Positions 41,877 to 44,731 of a stretch of DNA of 64,000 nucleotides are shown here, piece by piece. The notes under the pieces are model-generated. The model did not search any database. It had not been told where the DNA came from and saw only the letters and a list, made by a program, of their open reading frames with translations. The stretch comes from Choanephora cucurbitarum (lineage: Eukaryota; Mucoromycota; Mucoromycetes; Mucorales; Choanephoraceae). Every line of letters starts with the position of its first letter. Position 1 is the stretch's first letter. A program made the translations under genes and the position numbers. The stretch covers positions 1-64,000 of the forward strand of contig JAIWNI010000055.1 in assembly GCA_025331435.1 (NCBI GenBank), written 5' to 3'.

Positions 41877-42650
41877 ATGCCACCCAACATGCACAAACGT
41901 ATTTTGAACGAGATAGAGGATGTCAACAGCGACAATACAGCTCCCCTATTTGTGTATGTTCCTCAAGAAAGCAACATGTGTAAAGTGAATGACATCTCGC
42001 ACATCACTCTTGACTTAATCATTTCCTGACTTTTAGATCATATCATCGGCTCAATAGAAGGACCACCCGACTCACCATACGAAGGTTGCTTCATTTGTGA
42101 AAAAATAAACAGAGATAACATCTAACATGAGTAGCATAGGCGGTACTTTCTTACTTGATATCAATCTGAATGTATAAGTAGGATACGCACTTCTGTAGCA
42201 TTATACTGACTATCTGCTTTGTTTATGAAGGATAACCACCCTTTTGGTCCACCCAATATCAAATTCATCACTAAAGTGTATCATCCTAATGTCAGCTCAC
42301 AAACAGTAAGTGAAGGCTCTATATTCTACAGTTTTATTTCTCTAACCAGATTATTAGGGTGCTATTTGTCTGGTAAACTAAGAGAGATCTTTAATTGATG
42401 ACACAAAAGCTGAAAAAAAAATTAGGATGTTTTGAAAAGCAACTGGTCTCCTGCAATGACACTAAGAACTAGTCTGATGTCAATTCAAGCTTTGCTGGGT
42501 GCTCCAGATGCCTCCTCGCCTCAAGATTATCAGGTTGCTAAGGTCTACACTGCTGATTTTCCAGAGTTCCTTAATGAAGCCAAGCTTTGGACAAGGACTT
42601 ATGCTAATCAGTCATTAAATGCTTACATAGATGCAACATTTGAAAACTAA
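41877..42650 (+). CDS. UBC1: Ubiquitin-conjugating enzyme E2, UBC1/UBE2K class without a UBA domain
   Basis: Six short exons. The spliced protein reads MPPNMHKRILNEIEDVNSDN, YHIIGSIEGPPDSPYEGGTF, DNHPFGPPNIKFITKVYHPN, SSQTGAICL, DVLKSNWSPAMTLRTSLMSI and QALLGAPDASSPQDYQVAKV. The active-site cysteine is in GAICL (near 42369), just before an intron with donor GTAAAC. TKVYHPN and ILKxxWSP are UBE2K/Ubc1 features, an E2 that extends Lys48 chains. Those relatives carry a C-terminal UBA domain. Here the protein stops soon after the E2 fold (NQSLNAYIDATFEN), at about 165 residues, so the UBA appears absent unless a further exon is used. Confidence 0.88.
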
Positions 42651-42792
42651 GAAATGTATAAACAGGATTACTTTTTTTTTTCTTATAAAAAACGTCAATA
42701 GGTCAAGTAAGATAGGCAGACAAGACATCAACTACTTGATTCATTGAGGGACGCTATGTATTTTAGATATGTTTAGTTTTAGTTGAGCTCAT

Positions 42793-44731
42793 TTAGTTTT
42801 CTGCTGTACTTGCCAATTTTGATTCACCCTCCCACATCTCCATAATTAACATCAGTAATTGATGAGGGTAAATCTGACTTAGCTTTCCTAAAGGTGGTCT
42901 TGTATGATGCTCCTTCACTGCCACATAAAGAGCATGTTCAGTCAAATCTAACTTGATGTTAATAGAAGAGCAAATACATGTGAAAGTGTGTGGAGAGTAT
43001 ACCTTGAAAGGGATATCCATATTCTCCCCAGCTCAGGATTTCCCAAAATATTAGCCCACATGCATACACCTTTATAATATACAGAATGAGTCTTTTCCGT
43101 CTTAAACAGAAGGTTGTAGCAACAATTTTAACTTACATCCACCTATAAGTAGCAGTTAAGCAGAAGAACATGAGAATTAATTAGGTACAATTAAAACAAC
43201 TTACTTTTTCAGTATAACTTGGATTCGAAGACCAATATTCAGGTGCTACATGATGCATTAGTAGCTATTGACTTTACAGGAACAACACTACCTTGCCTTA
43301 AAATAAGAAATTGATAAGCATCAATCTGTATCTTAATCTTGTACAAACAACTAGCTTACCAATTAGGTGTACCACAATGTGTATGCATCAGTACATTTGC
43401 TTTTGGCCTAATTCTTGCTAAGCCAAAATCATTGACTTTAGCTCTATCATCTCCCGAAATCTAATAGTTGAACCTTGTTTATACTGGGTAAACTTGTATT
43501 ATCCTGCTACTGATTATTTACCAAGATATTCATCGATTTCAAATCCTATGCTCTATACAGGTAAGAAGGAGAGTTTGGAGATGGCCAATAAAGGACCTTC
43601 TCTATATATATTTTTTTCTTTACTTACTCTGTGAATGATAGAAGGTCTAAAAAAAAGTATAAATAACTCAACAAATGATACTCAAAAAGATACAGTAGAC
43701 TTACCTTCTCGTATGCAAATAAGAGACACCAAGTGCTATATCATACATATACATCACCTTGTGGGTATTGTCAGTTGAATTCAAGTAAATGCTCAAGCAT
43801 GCTTTACCAATTGAGAGAAATTAGGCTTCTTGTAATTTCGAATGACATCAAACAAATCGCCTTTGGAGCACAACTCGGTGATGATACACAAGTGTTGGGG
43901 ATTTGTGCAGACACCAATAAAGCGAATTACATTTTCATGTCTCAATTGCCTATAGCATACATACAATACGTTAAATGCATTGCTGGCTAACTTTAAAGAT
44001 AACTTACTTTAGCACATTGATCTCGTGCTTAATTTCTTCCAAGTCCACTTGATTGAAATGAGTTAAGCGTAACTCGCCAATAGCCACTGGTTCCTGATAT
44101 AGCTCATCTGTATCAGTTCTCTTTCAGTCCAGAATAGTTTTCAAACTTACACCCTTATAGGAACCTATGATATAGACACGTTTGTTCGAACTGTTTCTTC
44201 TTTCTTGGATAAACACATACCTGCAAAACAATCCTTAAATCCCCCACTCCCAAGCTTTTTCCCTACTTGGAGTAAATGATAGGGAATATCATAGTCTGGA
44301 TTCTTGTCATCAAGAAACAACATGGACAGGTCACGTGAATTCAATTCAAGTCGTTGTTGAGGAGGTAATGTAGAGGAAGAGTCTGGTAACAATTCCAATG
44401 CAGTGTAAAGCCTTGGAGTCGAAGGTGCTGGAACGAGACGAATGTTTTCTTTCTATCCCAATGCATAAGTAACCTATTTTGTCTTACTCAATCAACTCAC
44501 CCAGCTAATCAAATCCTCTATCAATTCAGCCTTGGCTCCTTCTGTCCTCAATCCTCTCTCTTGACAATATTCTATGATATCAGCCAACATAAGCTTGTCT
44601 AGAGAGTCTCGATCAATTATCTAAAAGAAAAAAAAGGCCATGTCTTTATACCTTTACGCAAATGATCTATATGAAATGAAGCATACCTCAAGTGATGAAT
44701 CGATATGTCTACTCAAGATTTCAAACATCAT
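42793..44731 (-). CDS. SAP-domain protein kinase with microexons and displaced ATP-binding lysine
   Basis: Fifteen exons, 5' to 3': 44687-44731, 44501-44620, 44221-44452, 44151-44164, 44008-44093, 43808-43949, 43705-43757, 43628-43646, 43522-43545, 43360-43460, 43292-43296, 43205-43245, 43137-43142, 43003-43069, 42793-42947. They total 1110 nt, 369 residues. The N-terminus has a SAP-like helix pair (SLDKLMLADIIEYCQERGLR then KAELIEDLIS). The tyrosine-kinase-like catalytic domain follows: KKLGSGGFKDCFAGSYKG, EPVAIGELRL, EIKHEINVLKQLRHENV, ITELCSKGDLFDVI, IIHRDLKSMNIL, NDFGLARI, CGTPNWQAPEYW and VDVYACGLIFWEILSWGEYG. HRD, DFG, APE and the subdomain IX Asp are intact. The VAIK lysine is Gly, while a Lys in GGFKD matches the WNK lysine site. 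Substrates unknown; activity is inferred, not shown. Confidence 0.85.

Follow-up and report, generated by a model that had tools for sequence, protein, structure and literature searches.

A six-nucleotide sequence, GTGGAT, within a protein kinase gene of the fungus Choanephora cucurbitarum is very probably a genuine, constitutively included coding microexon, an old one that was kept because the kinase depends on it and that many gene finders overlook. The gene is encoded on the minus strand of the 64,000-nt stretch of contig JAIWNI010000055.1 that we analyzed (the window); its features are listed in Table 1. The case for the predicted microexon being real is built on the sequence itself, on a unique splice solution, on the pattern of exact losses in public gene models and on the presence of Val-Asp in transcript-like homologues. 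Constitutive inclusion in C. cucurbitarum is what we infer from the same evidence.

Table 1. Features of the kinase gene, with positions in the window.
Feature	Position	Strand	Length (nt)	Content	Remark
Kinase gene	42703..44731	minus		16 exons; 379-aa protein, SAP-like stretch and TKL-like kinase domain	hand-built model
Exon 4	44151..44164	minus	14	GSYKG	DELYQ instead in P0001
Exon 8	43628..43646	minus	19	..PSIIHR	
Exon 9	43522..43545	minus	24	DLKSMNIL, catalytic Asp238	exact loss in P0013 and P0066
Exon 11	43292..43296	minus	5	GCAAG	completes W-Q of GTPNWQAPE
Exon 12	43205..43245	minus	41	APEYWSSNPSYTEK	ends ...TATACTGAAAAA at 43205, then GTAAGT
Intron 12	43143..43204	minus	62	GTAAGT..TAG, ends CTTATAG	putative branch site TTAAC, about 13 nt before 3' end
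Exon 13	43137..43142	minus	6	GTGGAT, Val295-Asp296	subdomain IX Asp
Intron 13	43070..43136	minus	67	GTAAGT..AAG, GTAAGTTA to TTATAAAG	putative branch site CTCAT, about 17 nt before 3' end
Exon 14	43003..43069	minus	67	VYACGLIFWEILSWGEYGYPFQ	begins GTGTATGCATGTGGG at 43069
Intron 15	42754..42813	minus	60	GC-AG (GCAAGT..TAG)	same joint in P0001
Predicted spliced joint with the 6-nt exon				...GAAAAA/GTGGAT/GTGTATGC	
Hypothetical spliced joint without the 6-nt exon				...GAAAAA/GTGTATGC	
Predicted cDNA string, which would be at variance with a single 135-nt intron				GAAAAAGTGGATGTGTATGC	

The coding sequence of the gene model is 1140 nt long including the stop codon and is interrupted by 15 introns, 14 of them GT-AG and one GC-AG, with lengths of 46-82 nt (mean 59). 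Five exons are tiny (14, 19, 24, 5 and 6 nt), and all five are located inside the kinase domain. No Rfam family matched at the gathering threshold between positions 42600 and 44900. The public protein nearest to the 379-aa model, P0001 (C. cucurbitarum, Mucorales), has an N-terminus 10 residues longer and is identical to the model at each aligned residue outside three stretches, all of them at tiny exons; the rest of the gene model, including its GC-AG intron, is thereby confirmed. In those three stretches P0001 carries DELYQ in place of GSYKG and lacks both GTPNWQ and VD, that is, the 5- and 6-nt exons are lost, and each of the two gaps corresponds to a one-intron alternative listed by our enumerations of splice joints. 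In P0001, DELYQ arises because the acceptor of exon 5 is set 14 nt further upstream (44094-44107, minus strand), which replaces the 14-nt exon with the frame kept. This swap is probably an annotation error of coincidentally equal length. When joints around exon 11 were enumerated with GT donors and introns of at least 35 nt, the motif GTxxWxAPEYW was obtained in one of 16 two-intron models and in none of three one-intron models.

Read along the minus strand at 43142..43137, the DNA gives TATAG-GTGGAT-GTAAGT. The sequence-only reading had proposed an exon at exactly this place, leaving its strand unstated, between 62- and 67-nt introns with a good acceptor and a good donor, and the hand-built gene model bears this out. 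GTGGAT is thus a predicted coding microexon in the usual sense of the term, a tiny internal exon that lies in frame between good splice sites. The residues assigned to it were also correct: in the comparison with solved kinase structures Asp296 falls on the Asp of subdomain IX, and the EKVDVYACG created by the joint aligns with EKSDVYSFG of CTR1. Without VD, the PF00069 score of the protein drops to 155.8 bits from 169.3. We also enumerated in-frame joints between exons 12 and 14, with introns of at least 40 nt; one-intron models could use GT or GC donors, two-intron models GT donors only. None of the five one-intron models supplies the Asp, while exactly one of the nine two-intron models does, and that model is the one with the GTGGAT exon.

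The bare splice pattern is not rare, as YAG-N6-GTRAGT occurs twice across the 64 kb against 1.77 expected, and a genome-wide search for YAG-GTNGAY-GTAAGT returned three occurrences against three in the reversed control, i.e. no enrichment. Within the 135-nt gap, YAG-N6-GTAAGT appeared in 37 of 20,000 dinucleotide shuffles and the looser AG-N6-GTRAGW in 117. When AG-N6-GTRAGW had to enclose a [VIATS]-Asp pair, a single shuffle of the 20,000 contained it. The significance of GTGGAT is in its place and its content.

The Val-Asp pair, which the earlier reading expected in orthologues, is kept in 98 of 120 aligned homologues, and the other 22 are gapped there (exact deletions, fragments or garbled ends). 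Exact loss of the pair with good flanks is the commonest clean deletion among 124 homologue models and occurs in ten of them (P0001, P0003, P0004, P0006, P0023, P0025, P0080, P0105, P0115 and P0121). Other exact losses are fewer: counted over all lengths, the runners-up occur twice, and among losses of just two residues between good flanks there are otherwise only LK and QI, each seen once. By name, the ten models come from Choanephora cucurbitarum, Mucor plumbeus, M. fragilis, Parasitella, Backusella, Pilaira, Pilobolus, Endogone, Jimgerdemannia and Thamnocephalis. Thamnocephalis belongs to Zoopagomycota and Jimgerdemannia to Endogonales; leaving aside these two, Endogone and Choanephora, we take the remaining genera to be Mucorales. 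All ten entries originate from annotation databases (ncbi, nr or uniref, with P0115 also in eukprot), and each has a second missing or garbled stretch, mostly at or beside another tiny exon. A query carrying the Val-Asp-free joint of P0023 gave 101 matches among 103 candidates and listed eight of the ten models; P0121 was newly found in this way, and P0006 and P0105 were absent. The gene model of P0064 (Mucor atramentarius) reads EKVDISNCTSSKLLTHFLYLQVDVYACGL, with Val-Asp on either side of an extra stretch.

The repeated exact loss of Val-Asp is best read as one old exon that appears to have been missed again and again. The 6-nt exon is probably common to Mucoromycota and at least one lineage of Zoopagomycota, and a single origin would account for this distribution, with repeated independent origin as the alternative. 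Scans of a prokaryote and a viral sequence collection with P0002 as the query returned no genomic relative, which is unsurprising for a gene of fungi; exon structure in other species is therefore deduced from errors in gene models.

As transcript-like homologues we hand-picked in-family entries from lgn, jgi and ena sources whose longest contig is under 1.9 kb, which gave 16 of 173 proteins. Each contains one long uninterrupted frame of 247-408 aa, and for an intron-rich gene the combination of a short contig with such a frame suggests cDNA. The site is covered in 15 of the 16 (P0136 is garbled before the site and was left out of this count), and [VI]D is present in all 15. P0124, from an NCBI MAG with a 1081-bp contig, also has Val-Asp and stands outside this set. 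The closest member is P0002, a 379-aa protein 91% identical to the model, which contains both WQAPE and EKVD; with a longest contig of 1266 bp it is probably a transcript contig. The remaining transcript-like homologues are at most 64% identical, and therefore the 6-nt exon is not necessarily present in their genes. Errors of read-through in two other entries are also informative. The Cokeromyces protein P0029 reads EKVDVSS, which fits a GTNAGY donor directly after Val-Asp. P0007 from Rhizopus azygosporus reads GQVDVYACG, as if Val-Asp were preceded by an acceptor but not followed by an intron. The downstream intron is thus probably absent in Rhizopus, in which case the 6-nt exon would not be universal.

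These observations bear on three other accounts of the locus. The sequence-only reading suggested that inclusion of the exon could be an on/off switch, with condition-dependent splicing producing an active kinase with the Asp or an inactive in-frame kinase without it. Its premise that skipping is frame-neutral is correct, the residue concerned is of known importance, and a condition-dependent 20-nt microexon has been reported for Xlr2 of Trichoderma (PMC11121469). The switch itself finds no support in the homologues, however: not one of the 15 site-covering transcript-like sequences is Val-Asp-free, and the sequences that are Val-Asp-free are gene models defective elsewhere as well. Skipping would also require a 135-nt intron, well outside the range of the 15 introns of this gene, and the other tiny exons matter equally, as the 24-nt exon holds Asp238 and skipping of the 5-nt exon shifts the frame. 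We regard a regulated switch as very unlikely.

Slightly less credible still is an account with no microexon at all, in which a single 135-nt intron separates exons 12 and 14 and the protein is a degenerate kinase truly devoid of Val-Asp. The ten public gene models that read EK-[VI]YAC, including P0001 for the same protein, agree with it. Against it, every one of the 120 aligned homologues either has V-D or is gapped there, the HRD Asp, the DFG Asp and the alphaC Glu are all retained, and Val-Asp is present in P0002, from a transcript-sized contig; the six bases and their splice sites would moreover have to be a product of chance, of the kind that only the one shuffle reproduced. The least probable account is recursive splicing, in which removal of intron 12 leaves GTGGAT as a weak donor at AAAAA/GTGGAT and the exon is then lost by re-splicing. 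The exon does start with GT, and re-creation of a 5' splice site at the joint has been described for some exons (PMC6224609). GTGGAT is nevertheless a poor match to the donor consensus with GTAAGT directly behind it, and it serves as the donor of none of the 15 introns of the kinase gene.

If GTGGAT is a constitutive microexon, as we favor, introns 12 and 13 would be removed one after the other by intron definition, in an order that can only be presumed. The splicing machinery is reported to be unable to assemble on both sites of a microexon simultaneously (PMC8831610). Because both are short introns with a donor, an acceptor and a plausible branch site of their own, GTGGAT need not be recognized as an exon. 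The exon would supply Val-Asp, whose Asp is the subdomain IX residue; this Asp is said to stabilize the catalytic loop (PMC526369). In an AlphaFold model of the Rhizopus relative P0005 (29 sequences, pLDDT 76.1), the corresponding Val272-Asp273 is near the start of a helix spanning residues 270-286. GTGGAT is probably needed by the enzyme, and the exon may have been retained over time because its loss would damage the enzyme. Skipping would yield an in-frame protein that is probably inactive, and we see no sign of the cell making such a protein.

Ultra-short coding exons are already known in plants and in Fusarium, and the Choanephora kinase exon adds to them. The one-nucleotide exon of the Fusarium cytochrome P450 CYP621A is similarly fungal, coding, located in a conserved motif and resistant to annotation, and in both genes the unsplit intron is about twice the usual length (139 nt in Fusarium and 135 nt here); that exon breaks the frame, whereas the 6-nt exon is frame-neutral (PMC12940212). 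Conserved misannotated microexons of plants are comparable in being tiny, coding and old, and in being left out of many gene models at the cost of a few residues (PMC8831610), and the Xlr2 microexon was likewise found in a filamentous fungus and was not predicted in the JGI gene model (PMC11121469). The single-nucleotide exon of Arabidopsis APC11 is constitutive and ultra-short as well, but it is 1 nt long and belongs to a plant anaphase-promoting-complex gene; before that case the smallest constitutive exon known is reported to have been 6 nt (PMC4674806). The kinds of evidence differ: RNA reads back the Fusarium exon (PMC12940212), RNA-seq revealed the plant microexons (PMC8831610) and inclusion of the Xlr2 exon depends on glucose (PMC11121469), whereas the Mucorales exon is read from sequence together with homologue models. 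Our literature search, mainly outside subscription journals, found no earlier report of the GTGGAT exon of this kinase.

From the Mucorales, the locus would contribute a 6-nt coding exon that is vital, seemingly old, placed in a catalytic core and apparently spread across early-diverging fungi. In several species the catalytic core of this kinase is misrepresented by the public models, and the ten homologue entries without the subdomain IX Asp, which probably lack it through annotation only, might be taken for pseudokinases. Where an identical pair of residues is exactly missing from many gene models, this sign may serve as a cheap finder of conserved microexons without RNA data.

We conducted domain analysis of the spliced protein. 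It matches the Pfam kinase families PF00069 (1.4e-49) and PF07714 (4.8e-49), and its N-terminal SAP-like stretch scores 22.4 bits against the Pfam cut-off of 23.9; PF02037 (SAP) is matched at E <=0.001 in 17 of 29 relatives. Among the best 60 of 2586 matches to solved structures, the first is a chain of EGFR that contains the kinase twice (TK), followed by CTR1, MAP3K12, TNNI3K and B-Raf, which we take to be members of the TKL group, and none is a WNK. By profile and solved-structure matches, the predicted kinase domain is nearest to TKL members. Published kinomes differ on this group, one paper reporting TKL kinases to be absent from fungi (PMC3019232) and another reporting isolated fungal TKL kinases, with many in Laccaria (PMC2838846).

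The spliced protein has the canonical residues E161 (alphaC), D238 (HRD), D256 (DFG), E283 (APE) and D296. Its Gly loop reads LGSGGFKDC and its beta3 strand VAIGELR, which puts Gly143 at the position of the usual catalytic Lys and Lys128 after GxGxF; we assume that Lys128 is equivalent to Lys233 of WNK1. In the alignment of 120 homologues, counting those with a letter at the position, Lys128 is kept in 118 of 118, the VAIK lysine of beta3 is absent with G at position 143 in 112 of 114, and the alphaC position has a Glu in 118 of 119. A distant set with names from Phakopsora, Tilletia, Tremella, Rhodotorula, Melampsora and Amoeboaphelidium (the first five presumably Basidiomycota) mostly has the loop Lys with G, A, S or C in beta3, a few of its rows being fragmentary or broken at the lysine positions. 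A tree was built from 52 of 56 rows, those that were long enough and had a residue at each of the two lysine positions: 43 have the loop Lys without the beta3 Lys, seven have the beta3 Lys without the loop Lys, and in two (P0156 and P0160) the Gly loop is broken, so that they were assigned to neither group. One branch with support of 100/100 parts the 43, together with those two, from the seven, among which there are long branches. In the AlphaFold model of P0005, Gly120 is in the strand 115-122, and we drew no geometry from this model as its Gly loop is of low confidence.

A Gly-loop Lys without a beta3 Lys is a WNK-like lysine arrangement, seen at the level of sequence in one fungal TKL-like group. 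We lean toward the view that a single shift took the catalytic lysine out of beta3, where Gly, Ala, Ser or Cys now stands, and placed it directly behind GxGxF in the Gly loop, which would make this an active family convergent with WNK and not a set of TKL pseudokinases. WNK1 and POMK are reported to use a lysine shifted to beta2, and WNK kinases resemble the fungal proteins in lacking the beta3 VAIK lysine and having a nearby lysine as a possible replacement (PMC10211241). By sequence the fungal family appears nearer to TKL, and its likeness to WNK kinases concerns the lysine alone. TKL pseudokinases are reported to be numerous in plants and fungi (PMC10211241), and therefore this family may have been counted there as inactive. 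If the reading is true, the TKL-like lysine-shift group includes early-diverging fungi, Basidiomycota and an aphelid-named protein, and its catalytic core in Choanephora is largely spread over exons of 5, 6, 14, 19 and 24 nt. We found no report of such a lysine shift in fungal TKL-like kinases in the literature that we searched, mainly outside subscription journals.

A protein search of the genome returned no close paralogue with the same exon among the scored candidates, the other loci being 24-43% identical. For the related kinase P0081 (C. cucurbitarum A0J61_08116), the only good match in the genome is the window's own gene, and the P0081 record may therefore be from another strain or species. 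Beside the kinase gene, at about 41880-42650 on the plus strand, there is a convergent neighbor gene with small exons that, judged by eye only, is similar to ubiquitin-conjugating enzymes.
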